This document shows, piece after piece, positions 2,014 to 21,742 of a DNA stretch of 21,742 nucleotides. Made by a program: the position numbers and the translations under genes. Under the pieces are notes generated by a model. That model was not told where the DNA came from, did no database searches, and saw nothing but the letters and a program-made list of their open reading frames with translations. Position 1 is the first letter of the stretch; each line of letters opens with the position of its first letter. The stretch comes from a virus: IMG/VR virus record IMGVR_UViG_3300037493_000288, positions 1 through 21,742 of that record; one strand, 5' to 3'.

Positions 2014-2568
2014 TCATGCTGCTATTTCCGTGGCAGTTAAAGTTGAAAGCGCATCGTTTGCATTTATAAAAACAGTACCACTTACGCTTTTATAATAAAG
2101 AGTATATGTCGTAGCTGATGTAGTGGCTGGAGAGTCAAGATAAATTGCATTAATAGGGCTAGTGGCAATATATCCAGCCGTTACCAATACTTTGTTAGTA
2201 GCTCCTAAATCAGTTGCATTTCTATAAATTGTTATAAGCAAACCTGTTGCTGCTGGGTTAAGAGAATATGCGCCAGAATAATTTATTAATACTTTGCTTG
2301 TAGAAGAAGATGGCGTAATAGTTACACTAAAGCTACTTGTAACATAAGATGTTGATGAAGTAGTTACTTGCGCCCCTGTAGATGTAGCTTGCACTACTTG
2401 CAATACACTACCTGTAGGTAATGATGCCTTACTCAATCCAGTAACCGCTACACCTGCTGATGTCACCGCTATCTTAGTTGAGCCACCGCTTTGTATGTTT
2501 AAGACACCAGAGGTGTCAGGAGTTAACTCCAGTCCTGCTGTCGTACTTGCGTTTAATGTAACTGCCAT
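2014..2568 (-). CDS. Probable tail-fibre / virion structural protein (184 aa)
   Basis: A 184-residue beta-rich, Ser/Thr/Ala-rich protein starting MAVTLNASTTAGLELTPDTSGVLNIQ. It has typical phage-fibre wording: GGSTKIAVTSAGVAVTG near the N-terminus, then LPTGSVLQVVQATSTGAQVTTSS, and a C-terminal domain with alternating hydrophobic strands (KVLINYSGAYS, LLITIYRNATDLG, TTYTLYYKSVSGTVFINA). The 'LPTGSVLQVVQ' opening of the second domain recurs in many phage structural proteins. It has no signal peptide or transmembrane helix. It sits directly after the main fibre gene with an 11-base gap and a GAGGA Shine-Dalgarno. A fibre tip or a second receptor-binding protein is the best guess. The exact role is not visible. 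Confidence 0.7.
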   Translation of the reverse strand: MAVTLNASTTAGLELTPDTSGVLNIQSGGSTKIAVTSAGVAVTGLSKASLPTGSVLQVVQATSTGAQVTTSSTSYVTSSFSVTITPSSSTSKVLINYSGAYSLNPAATGLLITIYRNATDLGATNKVLVTAGYIATSPINAIYLDSPATTSATTYTLYYKSVSGTVFINANDALSTLTATEIAA

Positions 2569-2579
2569 ATTTTAATCCT

Positions 2580-4229
2580 CTAAATTATTACCCAGCGAGA
2601 GCCTGATGGAATGGAAACTGTGGCGCCAGAATTGATTGTGATAGGGCCAACAGATACAGCTGACTTACCAGATGTAAGTGTATAGCTAGTAGTTACAATC
2701 ATACTGTTTTCACTAAATACCGTGTCACCACCTGCACCAGTCGCACCGCCCCCTACAGAACCCCAAGCAGAACCATTGTGTCCTTCAAAGGTACCAGTTG
2801 TGGTATTAAACCTAAAGTAACCAGCACTAGGACTACCGTCACGTTCACCTGTAGTGCCATTAGGAATATCAGCAGAGCCAGTTGTAGATGTCTGTGGAAC
2901 AAAGCCAGTACCAGACACATAAGCCGCTACCCAAGAAGAGCCAGTGTAAACATTCATTACACCGCTTACAGAGTTGAAGTATAACGCACCAGCAAGTAAA
3001 GCATTGCCATCATTATCTAGCGTAGGAGCTGATGTTTTAGAGCCTAGGTATCTATCATCAAAGCTATCAAAGGCTGATAGTGTTTGGTCTCTTGCCGCTT
3101 CAGCCGCAGTCTGTGCATTTGACGCAGATGTAGCCGAATTGGATGCGTTCGTAGCCGAAGTAGAAGCAGAACTAGCAGAACTAGCTGCATTGGTTGCTGA
3201 TGTACTAGCGGCACTAGCAGAAGTAGAAGCATTGCTTGCTTGAGTAGTCGCTGTGCTTGCAGATGAACTAGCAGATGATGCAGAGCTAGAAGCATTGCTT
3301 GCAGATGTGCTGGCAGAGCTTGCACTTGTCGAAGCATTAGAAGCTGATGTAGCGGCCGCAGTAGCAGAGTTACCAGCATTGGTAGCCGCAGTAGACGCAG
3401 TAGAAGCAGATGTACTTGCATTACTTGCGCTTGTAGCCGCGTTAGTTGCAGCAGTCTCAGCATTAGTCTCAGCAGTCTCAGCGTTTGTCTCTGCTGTTTC
3501 AGCATGTGTCTCAGCTAATTCAGCAGCAGCTTGGGCAGCCTCGGCAGCAATCTGTGCGGCACCAGCGGCAGCGGCATCAACAACTAGACCCCACTTAGCA
3601 GAGTCAGCGTTAGTGCTGATTGGCAATGCCCCGGTAGAGGTATGAGCCGTTAATACAATGTAGACATTGCTATTAGTCGTGTCTTTAACTAAGTCACGGT
3701 TTTGGTATGATACGCCAGAGGCCCAGTTACCACGCCAGTTACCAATAGCGTCACCAGCAATAGGATTACCATTAGAGTCAAAGGATAACGTCTTGCCAGC
3801 CCTAGCAGTATTAACTGGTAACACCATGTTAATGTTAGTAGGGTCAGTAACAGGAGCCTTAATACCACGCTCTGCTGTCTCAGCTACTTGTTGAACTAGG
3901 ATTGTCTGTGAATCCATCTCATCGTTCAATGTGTTAGCAAAGAAGTCACCGCCAGTAGTAAAGTCTGTGGTACGCTGTATTGCCCTAGCACCAACAATAG
4001 TAATACGGTCAGAGCCAGTAGCCGCAGTCACCAACGTAACCGAGCCTGTTCCTAATGTGGAACTAATGCTAACGGTATAGTCCGTTGTAAGTGTCAGCAA
4101 CAAGTCATTCTTATATACCTTGATGTCTGTGTTAGTCAGCACTTCAAAGCTAAAGGCATACGGCCCAACACCTGCCGAGCCTGTGTAGACTATGCGCCTT
4201 GCTACGTTACTAATTGGATAATCTGCCAT
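2580..4229 (-). CDS. T7-type tail fibre protein (549 aa)
   Basis: Residues 1 to about 130 match the T7 gp17 N-terminal anchor, which binds the tail (VYTGSAGVGPYAFSFEVL, DIKVYKNDLLL, DYTVS, IVGARAIQRTTDF, LNDEMDSQTILVQQVAE). Residues 163-216 look like a small carbohydrate-binding-like module: W.GNW..G.SY...DLV, VYIVLTAHTS, D.AKWGLV. Residues 218-380 are an Ala/Ser/Thr/Asn repeat shaft. Residues 395-549 are a tip with two YNG-AW-type modules (ALYFNSVSGVMNVYTGSSW and FRFNTTTGTFEGHNGSAW) and an ending (ENSMIVTTSYTLTSGKSAV...SGSRWVII) common at phage fibre C-termini. The fibre is expected to be trimeric and to bind the cell surface. No C-terminal chaperone or depolymerase motif is visible. The Shine-Dalgarno is AAGGGG before ATG. 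The stop codon of the preceding gene lies one base upstream of the start. Confidence 0.9.
   Translation of the reverse strand: MADYPISNVARRIVYTGSAGVGPYAFSFEVLTNTDIKVYKNDLLLTLTTDYTVSISSTLGTGSVTLVTAATGSDRITIVGARAIQRTTDFTTGGDFFANTLNDEMDSQTILVQQVAETAERGIKAPVTDPTNINMVLPVNTARAGKTLSFDSNGNPIAGDAIGNWRGNWASGVSYQNRDLVKDTTNSNVYIVLTAHTSTGALPISTNADSAKWGLVVDAAAAGAAQIAAEAAQAAAELAETHAETAETNAETAETNAETAATNAATSASNASTSASTASTAATNAGNSATAAATSASNASTSASSASTSASNASSSASSASSSASTATTQASNASTSASAASTSATNAASSASSASTSATNASNSATSASNAQTAAEAARDQTLSAFDSFDDRYLGSKTSAPTLDNDGNALLAGALYFNSVSGVMNVYTGSSWVAAYVSGTGFVPQTSTTGSADIPNGTTGERDGSPSAGYFRFNTTTGTFEGHNGSAWGSVGGGATGAGGDTVFSENSMIVTTSYTLTSGKSAVSVGPITINSGATVSIPSGSRWVII
3090..3578 (-). repeat. 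Ala/Ser/Thr/Asn repeat shaft of the tail fibre
   Basis: Residues about 218-380 of the fibre are short degenerate repeats. The first part is of ETAETNA type and the rest of SASNASTSAS type, nearly without hydrophobic residues other than alanine. Reading the same DNA in other frames or on the plus strand gives long but meaningless open frames. The repeats probably form an alpha-helical trimeric shaft and can vary in copy number. Confidence 0.8.
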
Positions 4230-4230
4230 G

Positions 4231-7230
4231 CTATTTAGCCCCTTGTCCTACGTCTCTAATTATGTCTGCCCGCTCTTGAATCCGTGCTTGTATGTCTTCA
4301 GAATATTGCGAGTTAGTATATAACAATTTCCTCGCTTTAGAAAATGTTTCTTGAATATAATCGTTTATCATTGATTGTTGTCTGTATAATGGCAAGTCCT
4401 TAATTTCTTCAGCATAACCTACAATACCCTCTTGTAAGTTCAAACCTGCTGGGTCATTAGCAATTAATAACATTTCATTATATTCATTTGGATTTAAGTC
4501 AACGGTAACACTTAATCCTTTTTCAACTGCTTCAGTTAAGTTTCTTGCTGGCATTTTTATTTTAGCGCCAGTTTGGATAATGATTTGGTCAGCCTCAGTT
4601 TGCTTGCCTTCTTTCATTCTGATTGGCGCCCAAGCATACTCATACTCTACAGGCTCTCCCCATAAGTTTAGTTTCAACGGCAAGGTATCGCTTAAGCCTG
4701 GAACTGTATTCAATACATCATTAATGCCTTGCCTAATACCAGTAGGCAAACTACTTTCTGCATTAGCGTCAATTTTATATTCGCGTTGATATGGGTCAAC
4801 CTTCTCACGCACAGAAGTAACTAATCCGCTTAATGGGATAACTGTTCTACCAGCAAAGTTAACTAATGATTGACCAAGCGTGTCCATCAACTTAACAGCG
4901 TCATCTTGGTTAGAACGATAAGACATGCCAAGTGATGATGAGATGTTGCTTAGGCCTTGCAAGAATGGGCTTTGCATCATATAGTCATAGAAGCCATAAG
5001 CTAGACCAGCCCTCATTGCATTGATTTTGCTATTGTCATTCTCATACTTAACGTATTCGTGATAGTTAGCAGACATGGCCATAAACGCACCAATAGGCTC
5101 CATACCTTGATATGACACATATACCTTGCCAGCATAATCACCAGAGCCATAACGAACGTCTACAGGAAGTTTAGCAAACTCACCTTTTTGTGATTCAGTC
5201 ATGTCTGAGAAGTCAAACACCAAACTATATGGTTGCCATCCTTGACGCATCAAAGCATCGCGCTGACCTTTATCTGCTGGGCCTGCTCCTGTAATCTTGC
5301 CTTCTTCAGCATAGCCAGCCATCATCATGCCAGCACTGGTACCCATGCCAATCTTAGCCAAGGCCATGTCGCCTTCTTTTCCACCTTTGGCAATGTCACC
5401 TCTAATCTTTTTACCTAAAGCTGCTAGTGGGGTGCGCTCTAATACTTGTAAGTTCAAGTTTACTGGAGTAGTAACAAATGGTATTTGCAATCTAGCCAAG
5501 AACCCCATAGCTGAATCATCGCTAATTAATTCTTGTGCTTTCTTAGCCCATCCTTCTAATGGCTTAGTAAATGTAGCCTCTTGAGCCAAAGCATTTAATT
5601 CATCAGGCGGATTGTCGTATACATTTTGTACTGCTTTGTCGTATATATTTTCAGCATCAGCAGAACTACTGCCAGCTTTAACAGCATCATCGTAGGCTTT
5701 AATGCCATTACGGGTTGCCATTGCTTCCATCTCAAAGCGATAGTTCACGCCTTTAAAAAACTCATCCGCAGTCAATAAAGAACGACCGGGCAATGTAGCT
5801 ACAAAGTTTACGCCTTTCAAGAAGCCTGCTAATGGGCTATCAGCGTTGTAATCAAATATTTCAGTCCTAGCTTTAGCTATACCAATCTTATTTGCATCAT
5901 CCATCGTAGATGAGTAACCTTCTTTGGCGGCAAACTTAGCCATGTTAAAACCATCTTTAATTGCTTGGTTAGTGGCAGACAGACTAGAGAATACTTCGGA
6001 AAAGTAATATTGCTCATCAGCACCTAAGCCCATTGCCTTTCTTGCAGTTCCTACACCAGCAGCAGTAGCTTTCTCAGCCAAACGTATTGGCATCATAATA
6101 GTGTTGCTTATGGCGTTCTTAACGTGTGTTGCTGGGCGAGATAAGATGTTATTAACAAACACAGAAAACGCTTTGTCTTTCCATCCGCCAATAGCAGTAG
6201 CATCAATTAACTTAGCACGTTTAACTGCATCAGCTTCACTTAAAAACGCATCAGCAAATTTACGCAAATCAGAACTAGACATCAAGCCACTTGTTGCTTC
6301 TTCAAGATTGACAAAGCCTTCACGCGGTATTCTCATAACAGCAAGAGATTGCGCCACGTTAGTTTGATAACCTTTTACACTGCGTTGAATTAAGCTATGG
6401 AATGAAATAGTTTGCATTGCCTCAAGCTCATCGGCAGGAGTAATGCTTTCTGGATTATCTTTAAAACGTCTCATCAAGTCTTGCAAATGCAATGCACTAG
6501 ACTTCTGAGCCTCTAAAGCCATGTAAGTGTTTTTAGGGTTTACAGTAAGAGTGCCTTCTGTCAACTTGCTAATAAACGTATCATCCATACCTGCTGATTT
6601 TGCAGATGCAACTACATCATCAAACGTGATGTTCTCTGTTTTAATGTTGCTAGTTTCAGCAATAGATTTAACTACTGCTTGCAAGTCTGTATCTTGAGAA
6701 AGCACTGGCAGATTAAATGGTTGCTTAACTGTATTCAACTCATCTTTAGCTTGAGCCAATTCTTCTTTAGCACTAGGAACACCATTAGCTACATCTTCTT
6801 CTAGCTTCTGCACATTAGCATTTTGCTTTTCAAGAACTGGAGTAGTTGAGTCAATCGTTTCCTGTAATTGCTCTACAGTTACTTGTGGCTCCTCGTTAAT
6901 CTTTTGCTGTATCTTGCCAGCTTTAGTCGCTTCAGTCTTAGTGCCAAGGCCAGACTTCTCTGCGCCAATAGCCATTTCCTTAACTTGCTCACCAGCAGGT
7001 TTAATTTTCTCAATGACAACGGCTGGCTTAACTTCACGCTCAAGAGTTTTCTTTATTGCTCCACCAGTTGCTTTCTCGATAATTTTTTTACCAATAGCAC
7101 CAATACCTGCTACCTTTTCGCTTTCACCAGTAAATACTGAATCAGCTTCAGACACAGGCAATGACTCATCAATTGCTGGGATGTCACCAGTTAATTGGTC
7201 AATCTTAGAATTAATGTTTTGATTAATCAT
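4231..7230 (-). CDS. Large internal virion / DNA-ejection protein (gp16-like position, 999 aa)
   Basis: The largest protein of the window, in the place of T7 gp16, last of the ejection genes before the fibre. It is packaged inside the head and is expected to enter the cell with the DNA. Residues 1-35 are acidic, and residues 40-64 form a cationic amphipathic stretch (VAGIGAIGKKIIEKATGGAI). Residues 115-170 look like coiled coil. The body carries NILSRPATHVKNAISN (361-376) and PGRSLLTADEFFKGVNYR (481-498), wording I recall from large internal virion proteins of other phages. A Gly/Met-rich stretch (KIGMGTSAGMMMAGYA) follows later. T7 gp16 is about 1300 residues and has an N-terminal lytic transglycosylase; I see no such domain here. 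The start overlaps the upstream stop (ATGA), so translation is coupled. The role is inferred from position and composition. Confidence 0.75.
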   Translation of the reverse strand: MINQNINSKIDQLTGDIPAIDESLPVSEADSVFTGESEKVAGIGAIGKKIIEKATGGAIKKTLEREVKPAVVIEKIKPAGEQVKEMAIGAEKSGLGTKTEATKAGKIQQKINEEPQVTVEQLQETIDSTTPVLEKQNANVQKLEEDVANGVPSAKEELAQAKDELNTVKQPFNLPVLSQDTDLQAVVKSIAETSNIKTENITFDDVVASAKSAGMDDTFISKLTEGTLTVNPKNTYMALEAQKSSALHLQDLMRRFKDNPESITPADELEAMQTISFHSLIQRSVKGYQTNVAQSLAVMRIPREGFVNLEEATSGLMSSSDLRKFADAFLSEADAVKRAKLIDATAIGGWKDKAFSVFVNNILSRPATHVKNAISNTIMMPIRLAEKATAAGVGTARKAMGLGADEQYYFSEVFSSLSATNQAIKDGFNMAKFAAKEGYSSTMDDANKIGIAKARTEIFDYNADSPLAGFLKGVNFVATLPGRSLLTADEFFKGVNYRFEMEAMATRNGIKAYDDAVKAGSSSADAENIYDKAVQNVYDNPPDELNALAQEATFTKPLEGWAKKAQELISDDSAMGFLARLQIPFVTTPVNLNLQVLERTPLAALGKKIRGDIAKGGKEGDMALAKIGMGTSAGMMMAGYAEEGKITGAGPADKGQRDALMRQGWQPYSLVFDFSDMTESQKGEFAKLPVDVRYGSGDYAGKVYVSYQGMEPIGAFMAMSANYHEYVKYENDNSKINAMRAGLAYGFYDYMMQSPFLQGLSNISSSLGMSYRSNQDDAVKLMDTLGQSLVNFAGRTVIPLSGLVTSVREKVDPYQREYKIDANAESSLPTGIRQGINDVLNTVPGLSDTLPLKLNLWGEPVEYEYAWAPIRMKEGKQTEADQIIIQTGAKIKMPARNLTEAVEKGLSVTVDLNPNEYNEMLLIANDPAGLNLQEGIVGYAEEIKDLPLYRQQSMINDYIQETFSKARKLLYTNSQYSEDIQARIQERADIIRDVGQGAK

Positions 7231-13733: not shown

Positions 13734-13942
13734 AATGTATCTCCTGATAACGAATTAAAATAAAGTTTTGTGCTGTGGTGTGCCACCGAGATGGGCCGTT
13801 GCTTGCTACTTACGGAAGCCAATCGTCAAGGTTACTTGAGTTTGGGGTCAATTTAATGATATGCCCACGCTCTTTATAACACAAGTAATAAGTAAATACA
13901 ATTATTATTTGCAGATTGATAAGAAATATTTATGATTAGGAC
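13734..13942 (-). other. Capsid-gene leader region without coding potential
   Basis: About 209 bases between the upstream terminator and the capsid start hold no plausible gene. On the minus strand the first part is very A+T-rich and contains a candidate promoter. The later part has several small inverted repeats. TCAAG-TAAC-CTTGA (13826-13839) is framed by CCAA and TTGG, and GGTG-GCA-CACC lies at 13777-13787. The region ends in AGGAG before the capsid ATG. A structured 5' untranslated region of about 130 nt is plausible. Confidence 0.55.
13873..13901 (-). promoter_or_regulatory. Candidate sigma-70-like promoter for the capsid gene
   Basis: On the minus strand TTGTAT (13896-13901), a 17-base spacer, and TATAAA (13873-13878) lie just after the terminator of the preceding unit and about 140 bases before the capsid ATG. 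The -10 box is good (five of six) and the -35 is weak (three of six). In such an A+T-rich stretch it could be chance, but its position after a terminator supports it. Confidence 0.4.
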
Positions 13943-21146: not shown

Positions 21147-21174
21147 AGTATAACATAATAAATGTCTTGCACAA
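21147..21174 (-). promoter_or_regulatory. Candidate promoter of the minus-strand unit
   Basis: On the minus strand TTGTGC (21169-21174), a 16-base spacer and TATACT (21147-21152) lie about 35 bases before the first gene of the unit. The -10 is five of six, the -35 three of six. It overlaps the -35 of the opposite promoter. Confidence 0.5.
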
Positions 21175-21194
21175 TATAACGATTGGGGTATAAT
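21167..21194 (+). promoter_or_regulatory. Candidate promoter of the structured RNA and HNH gene
   Basis: TTGCAC (21167-21172), a 16-base spacer and a perfect TATAAT (21189-21194). Transcription would start near 21201, just at the first hairpin of the RNA. It shares its -35 bases with the divergent minus-strand promoter. Confidence 0.6.
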
Positions 21195-21198
21195 AACT

Positions 21199-21294
21199 TT
21201 ATCTGTTCTAGCCAGATAAGAGCTTATTAATTGTGGTGTTGCCGGTGGGGATTCCTGCTGGGCTAGACAGCATCACATTTAATAGGCTTTTTTT
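21199..21294 (+). ncRNA. Structured leader RNA with loop-bulge pseudoknot upstream of HNH gene
   Basis: Hairpin 1: TTATCTG (21199-21205) pairs CAGATAA (21213-21219) with loop TTCTAGC. Hairpin 2: 21221-21241 pairs with 21268-21288, giving 20 of 21 pairs (17 Watson-Crick, three G-T) with one T-T mismatch. Inside it an eight-pair stem, 21242-21249 with 21254-21261, closes a GATT loop. Between inner and outer stem on the 3' side lies a six-base bulge, GCTAGA (21262-21267), exactly complementary to TCTAGC (21207-21212) in the loop of hairpin 1. A loop-to-bulge pseudoknot is therefore likely. Hairpin 2 ends in TTTTTTT (21288-21294) directly before the HNH ATG at 21295. The element may be a small RNA with its own terminator, an attenuator, or a ribosome-site-masking leader. 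It matches no RNA family that I recognise. Confidence 0.7.
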
Positions 21295-21738
21295 ATGGCA
21301 TTAACTAGAAACTATGAGCCATCAATATATGGCAAAGTAAACAAAAAGAGTAGGGCAAAGAAAGCCATTGCTGCTAAAAAAACATTATCTAAAATGTTAC
21401 TTAGTGACAAGGCCGTTCAAGAAGTTTTGCAGAAAGAATTAGCCAAAATAAAAGCTAAGCATACCAAGCAATATAAGACATGGTTGCCGTATATAGCTGG
21501 GATGAAAGGCGTTGACTTCTATAGAACAAGAGAATGGGCAGAACTGAGATATAAAACACTTGTAAAATATGGGAAAGTATGTCAATGTTGTGGTGCTGAC
21601 AAAGTGGTATTACATGTTGACCATATTAAACCGAGGTCTAAATATCCACAACTTGAATTAGATATAAATAACTTGCAAGTTTTATGCGAAACATGTAATG
21701 TTGGCAAAAGTAATAAAGACGTAACTGATTGGCGTTAG
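21295..21738 (+). CDS. HNH endonuclease (147 aa)
   Basis: A complete small HNH nuclease and the only plus-strand gene. The N-terminus is basic (residues 12-60, Lys-rich, with helix KELAKIKAKHTKQYKTW). The C-terminal part has FYRTREWAELRYKTLVKYG, a zinc pair C96/C99 (CQCC), the catalytic block LHVDHIKPRS with D109-H110, then DINNLQVLCETCNVGKSN with N125/N126, the second zinc pair C131/C134, and K138. HNH proteins of this size act in phages as homing endonucleases or as partners of terminase in packaging. The divergent orientation, the private promoter and the structured leader favour a selfish or homing type (inference). The only Shine-Dalgarno-like bases, AGG at 21284-21286, lie in the leader stem, so translation may be held low. 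It is not IscB or IshB: no RuvC parts or PLMP-type N-terminus is seen. Confidence 0.9.
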   Translation: MALTRNYEPSIYGKVNKKSRAKKAIAAKKTLSKMLLSDKAVQEVLQKELAKIKAKHTKQYKTWLPYIAGMKGVDFYRTREWAELRYKTLVKYGKVCQCCGADKVVLHVDHIKPRSKYPQLELDINNLQVLCETCNVGKSNKDVTDWR

Positions 21739-21742
21739 TGAA

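Follow-up and report, generated by a model that had tools for sequence, protein, structure and literature searches.

Structure of the RNA locus

The window, which is the whole stretch of viral DNA analyzed here (21,742 nucleotides), carries near its 3′ end a promoter-like sequence, a structured RNA of approximately 96 nt at 21198-21294 (plus strand), and a gene for an HNH endonuclease. The features are as follows.

21167..21172 (+): −35-like box TTGCAC, weak (3 of 6 consensus matches, 16-nt spacer)
21189..21194 (+): −10 box TATAAT, ending 3 bases before P1
21198..21220 (+): 5′ hairpin P1, 8 pairs (21198-21205 with 21213-21220), the outermost being U-G
21206-21212 (+): loop of P1, TTCTAGC, read in the sequence
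21207..21212 (+): 5′ strand of the pseudoknot, TCTAGC, inside the P1 loop; two compensatory pair changes in the relatives L003/L004
21221..21241 (+): 5′ arm of P2, a terminator-like hairpin, pairing with 21268-21288
21242..21261 (+): inner hairpin P3, loop GATT, 8 of 8 pairs (21242-21249 with 21254-21261), several of them G-U
21262..21267 (+): 3′ strand of the pseudoknot, GCTAGA, in the bulge between P3 and P2; exact complement of 21207-21212, covarying with it
21268..21288 (+): 3′ arm of P2, 20 of 21 positions paired, one U.U mismatch
21288..21294 (+): run of seven T, presumed 3′ end of the RNA and terminator U-tract; the first T pairs with A21221
21295..21738 (+): HNH endonuclease gene, 147 aa, ATG at 21295, Pfam PF01844 (E 1e-11)

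The sequence and its fold give two hairpins joined by a pseudoknot. The pairing counts in the first-pass annotation, 20/21 for P2 and 8/8 for P3, agree with a direct reading of the sequence, as does the fit of loop and bulge reported there, where GCTAGA is the sole unpaired stretch on the 3′ side of the second hairpin and exactly complements six bases of the loop. The minimum free energy of 21190-21310 is −47.6 kcal mol−1 (z = −6.9), and none of 200 shuffled sequences was equally stable.

The promoter proposed in the same annotation stands in part: the TATAAT box is perfect and lies just before P1, but the −35 box is weak, and a consensus scan omits the promoter. The TTGCAC box is conserved in relatives, including close ones with another RNA in the slot. 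The run of seven T is indeed located directly 3′ of P2, immediately before the ATG of the HNH gene. The terminator scan of the window does not list the P2/P3 hairpin because the scan permits only a plain stem-loop with a loop of 3-8 nt. The HNH gene is predicted to be transcribed from the TATAAT promoter only via read-through. Directly behind the HNH gene, just past the window end at 21742, lies a conserved non-coding block of ~270 nt (L025:1811-2080, minus strand; L001:2435-2703), the fold of which is mildly more stable than those of shuffled sequences (z −2.3).

Comparison with known RNA families

Rfam 15 at gathering thresholds gave no family for the window RNA or for modules in the related loci scanned, which is in line with the earlier description as an RNA of unknown family. 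At a relaxed E-value, the window RNA gave weak hits far below the gathering scores, and scans for tRNA and tmRNA found none.

In the pistol ribozyme, hairpin 1 uses its loop to pair with a strand inside hairpin 2, and this strand lies 5′ of the inner stem. The window RNA shares this loop-to-internal-strand pairing; however, its pseudoknot strand is on the 3′ side and it has no Rfam hit, and this candidate was rejected. In type III toxin-antitoxin systems, the pseudoknot RNA ToxI, arranged in tandem repeats, is followed by a terminator and then by a nuclease-type gene for a ToxN-type RNase. The order of pseudoknot RNA, terminator and nuclease-type gene is the same in the window; such a system was rejected because the RNA is a single copy, the gene product is a Pfam HNH protein, and other copies of the RNA precede other genes. 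The HEARO or IscB omega RNA was also rejected, as the 147-aa protein has HNH matches only in Pfam and the RNA has no Rfam match.

Compensatory changes in the near relatives

IMG/VR contains four close relatives of the HNH protein, and the RNA is kept alongside each of them. The pseudoknot TCTAGC/GCTAGA of the window is replaced by TCTCAC/GTGAGA in L003/L004, which corresponds to two two-sided exchanges (A-U to C-G and G-C to A-U). In P3, two two-sided and three one-sided pair changes separate the window from L003/L004, with all 8 pairs kept; L002 has one A.C mismatch. The first-pass annotation had named the loss of the stems and of the TCTAGC/GCTAGA pairing in homologues as a result that would speak against the RNA, and compensatory changes were found in L003/L004 instead.

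Diverged modules and the units behind them

A first covariance model, built from four window-family sequences, led to one further copy, L150, which differs in sequence and in which the loop GTGACAC faces the bulge GTGTCAC. When a strict descriptor was run over 1.39 Mb of DNA from related phages, only members of the window family and L150 scored above 27. The claim that the coincidence of loop and bulge goes beyond chance is borne out by this nearly exclusive recovery of the window family and by the two-sided changes in the relatives.

With more phages added, the descriptor also gave L218 and L187, while L184, L176 and L198 were recognized by eye and later recovered by a promoter-anchored scan. 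The modules of L218, L187, L184, L176 and L198 are located in the interval from the scaffold gene to the major capsid gene, before a large non-coding RNA. Relatives of the window carry a second, different module before the replication-initiator operon (L166, L167); L166 and L002 denote one contig, and its two modules differ in their loops. A scan with the replication-initiator (rep) protein gave many more leader modules, and a covariance model from 11 rep leaders found 21 leaders at E < 1e-11 in 80 loci. L388 (GenBank phage record MW202462) was reached through a blastn match of 27 nt and then confirmed with the covariance model; its module is flanked by a Cro-like gene and by a rep-like gene of another kind. 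The promoter-anchored scan of 3.2 Mb gave 36 unique hits in the real sequence, 4 of which were judged by eye to be chance, against 9 in the reversed sequence.

The curated set consists of 31 modules, where 3 are the window and its near relatives and 28 lie outside the window's slot, and the sequences of these 28 are almost all unrelated. Three kinds of unit follow the modules: replication-initiator operons, large non-coding RNAs of two kinds upstream of the major capsid gene, and the HNH gene; the module alone is shared across them. The HNH context is restricted to the window's clade, so that the placement in front of an HNH gene, as first described, holds for this clade, whereas most copies precede replication-initiator genes or large non-coding RNAs. 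The HNH association was rejected as a defining feature because other copies precede other units, and the HNH link of the RNA is incidental.

A sequence-only homolog search with nhmmer returned near-identical copies only, and none of the blastn matches of the modules in annotated phages and plasmids covered a whole module. For bacterial loci with related rep proteins, the covariance model was applied to 48 of 80 and none matched; the promoter-anchored scan of all loci likewise left the bacterial rep-related loci without a module. In the Methylophilales phage MEP301, the nearest cultured relative by capsid protein (79% identity), the module was found neither with the covariance model nor with the promoter-anchored scan. 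Whole records of L009-type phages are also without the module, which indicates that it is dispensable in these phages. In L009 itself (2330-2610, minus strand), a different conserved non-coding RNA of ~270-300 nt fills the slot of the RNA and the HNH gene; it has a similar promoter region and no Rfam match, and it is also present in L007-L018, L023, L034, L036, L051, L058 and L059, that is, in most relatives.

Between the scaffold and capsid genes, the window has no second copy of the module and holds a capsid leader instead. This structured leader of ~110 nt (13740-13880, minus strand) lies directly upstream of the major capsid gene, is conserved in 14 aligned phages with two-sided compensatory changes in 13 of 20 predicted pairs, and has no Rfam match in the window. 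The large non-coding RNAs of type A (L184:4590-4919) and type B (L176:1806-2105), which are conserved and located between module and capsid leader, have no Rfam match either. An insert before the type A RNA of L218 contains a T-arm-like stretch, GGTTCGACTCCAGACAA. L166:2765-4312 holds a phosphoesterase-like ORF with an apparent intein (CLSPHHKVLTADLKYVELRDVKVGDTLVSFDE ... VVEGYPHHNC), recognized by eye only.

Some copies are incomplete. In L223 (reverse complement, ~5830-6250), the module of L222 is present minus the pseudoknot strand, the P2 3′ arm and the T-run, which may be a real deletion or an assembly error. The module of L236 is without one P2 arm, where an assembly error may be the cause. 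L281 is a doubtful member with a short pairing only.

Covariation and pairing statistics

Two alignments of diverged modules were made with MAFFT and were not fitted to the structure: A5, consisting of 11 rep leaders, and A6, consisting of 8 capsid-side modules. In A5, 94.5% of the cells are paired and 24 of 40 pairs have two-sided changes; in A6, the values are 90.2% and 19 of 42, where each structure was taken from one member, which favors the true register for the paired cells and less so for the two-sided changes. The covariation score of A5 is 0.551, compared to 0.196 for shuffled alignments (reached in 0 of 500) and at most 0.113 for slid ones; that of A6 is 0.404, compared to 0.198 (0 of 500) and at most 0.132. 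Every helix covaries in both alignments, including the pseudoknot.

The match between the P1 loop and an unpaired stretch of the hairpin behind it averages 6.2 nt and is at least 6 nt long in 27 of the 31 modules. None of 10,000 permutations reached the observed sum of loop-partner matches, with the modules being partly non-independent (~20 distinct loop sequences). Mismatched loop-partner pairs match so well in 5.4% of cases within a class and in 0.4% between classes. The description as a pseudoknotted RNA is upheld by the covariation, which is seen both among the near relatives and in the two independent sets of diverged modules, and the pseudoknotted RNA of the window is real.

Two modules with different loops on one contig (L002 and L166) and the lack of a conserved binding core across the classes are difficult to reconcile with a ligand- or protein-sensing attenuator that answers a shared factor in the manner of a riboswitch. 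The leader position, the pseudoknot and the terminator-like stem would fit such an element, which is nevertheless considered very improbable.

Common anatomy and cassette exchange

All 31 modules have a −10-like box, the end of which is 2-12 nt (median 6) upstream of P1, and a T-run of at least 5 T directly after the P2 stem. The features of an intrinsic terminator, namely a GC-closed stem and a U-tract, are present in the sequences and folds of the 31 modules. The P1 loop is complementary, with covariation, to a loop or bulge in the T-tailed hairpin that follows. Where the downstream unit is coding, its first gene begins 0-19 nt past the T-run, and no new promoter is seen between module and first gene.

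In every module, the distance from the predicted start to P1 is a few nt at most, the fold is compact, and non-coding RNAs are also preceded by it, as can be expected if the 5′-end hairpin and the kissed stem guard transcripts from 5′-dependent decay, with the T-run being an accessory U-rich element, e.g., for ribosome standby. Such a stabilizing role leaves the ubiquitous GC-based terminator-like stem with its five or more T unexplained, and its likelihood is rated as low.

The own promoter, the compact fold, the U-tail and the several unrelated downstream units can also be read as an independent small RNA gene, where the ~96-nt RNA would have its target in trans, be it an mRNA, a defence system or a protein, and would be tied to the downstream genes by proximity only. 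However, in coding contexts the T-run is immediately followed by the SD or start codon of a gene, which leaves no room for another promoter, and there is no sequence conserved across the classes to pair with a fixed target. The small RNA gene is regarded as unlikely.

In the rep leaders of L242, L243, L257 and L259, P1 is long, and the kissing contact is formed by its apical loop and that of the terminator hairpin. L245 matches L242, i.e., the apical kissing form. L244 and L245 have flanks that are 86% and 99% identical, while their modules are 53% identical and of two different designs, which indicates that the bulge-pseudoknot and apical-kissing designs are interchangeable at one site. In L228 and L230, the flanks are 92% and 98% identical and the modules 64%. 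Judged from these sequences, the module appears to behave as a swappable cassette.

Proposed function and related systems

The promoter, the compact RNA and the T-tailed stem directly precede operons, including replication operons with no other promoter seen in between, which suggests a leader with a partly or conditionally read-through terminator. With a probability of roughly one half, the module is a transcription leader (attenuator), namely an intrinsic terminator that lies close to the promoter and is locked by the kissing contact, where termination at the T-run and regulated read-through are predicted from sequence and fold. A host-type RNA polymerase would start at P1 or a few bases before it; P1 would form, followed by P2/P3, and the P1 loop would pair with the strand ~20 bp above the base of P2. 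When the U-tract is reached, part of the transcription would end to give the compact RNA of ~96 nt, and the remainder would read into the next unit, which at the present locus is the HNH gene with the conserved non-coding block behind it. In other phages, that unit is the replication operon or a large non-coding RNA. The contact between loop and partner strand, whether kissing or pseudoknot, is what selection has retained, and it would set the ratio of termination to read-through. The RNA probably controls the amount of transcription entering the genes behind.

Some observations count against the reading as a leader terminator: P2, at ~20 bp, exceeds the usual length of terminator stems; the module is dispensable in L009-type phages; and no alternative antiterminator hairpin is apparent by eye, so that a classical two-state switch is not seen.

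In phage HK022, putL is located at PL, and put RNA acts in cis, as two hairpins of the nascent early transcript (PMC9378689). The modules resemble it in having two hairpins at the start of a transcript, where the early class is deduced here from the rep genes. If they acted like put, the module would bind RNA polymerase and make it resistant to later terminators, including its own T-run. The placement just 3′ of an early promoter, the two hairpins and the cis layout correspond to putL as portrayed in the excerpt of the source (PMC9378689), and the module of L388 lies between a Cro-like and a rep-like gene. However, the put element outlined there is ~70 nt long and V-shaped, putL and putR share sequence, and neither a kissing contact nor a terminal T-run is part of that outline (PMC9378689), whereas the modules have a T-run in 31 of 31 cases, a kissing contact and sequences that are almost all unrelated. 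A put-like action is given a slim likelihood.

The preferred leader terminator also has partial counterparts among small phage RNAs. IsrK of the Gifsy-1 prophage is a small RNA with its own terminator, and read-through yields an mRNA (PMC4825925); in the excerpted account, it differs in that no pseudoknot with the terminator is described and the short form activates translation in trans (PMC4825925). In phage P4, pairing of the CI RNA in the leader of the replication genes (seqA, seqC) controls premature transcription termination (PMC4825925). Both P4, as summarized in this source, and the present phages combine a small RNA and RNA-RNA pairing in a replication-gene leader (PMC4825925). The processed CI RNA pairs with two separate sites according to the same summary, whereas here the loop and its partner are within one terminator-like fold, with their complementarity in cis.

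The cassette swap with near-identical flanks makes an allele-specific action in trans, as with the P4 CI RNA, possible. By this analogy, the loop or bulge of the released RNA would pair with a nascent leader of the same type and force termination of the replication operon, which would result in superinfection immunity or replication control; the chance of this is considered slender. If true, the cassette swap between near-identical phages would represent specificity switching.

Many uncultivated phages carry, at the head of replication units and other transcription units, structured RNAs of a class that covaries strongly and is not in Rfam. The model is compact and easily tested, with six loop bases set against six bulge bases. 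The results suggest that a terminator locked by RNA controls essential operons in these phages, for which a dedicated protein is perhaps not needed.
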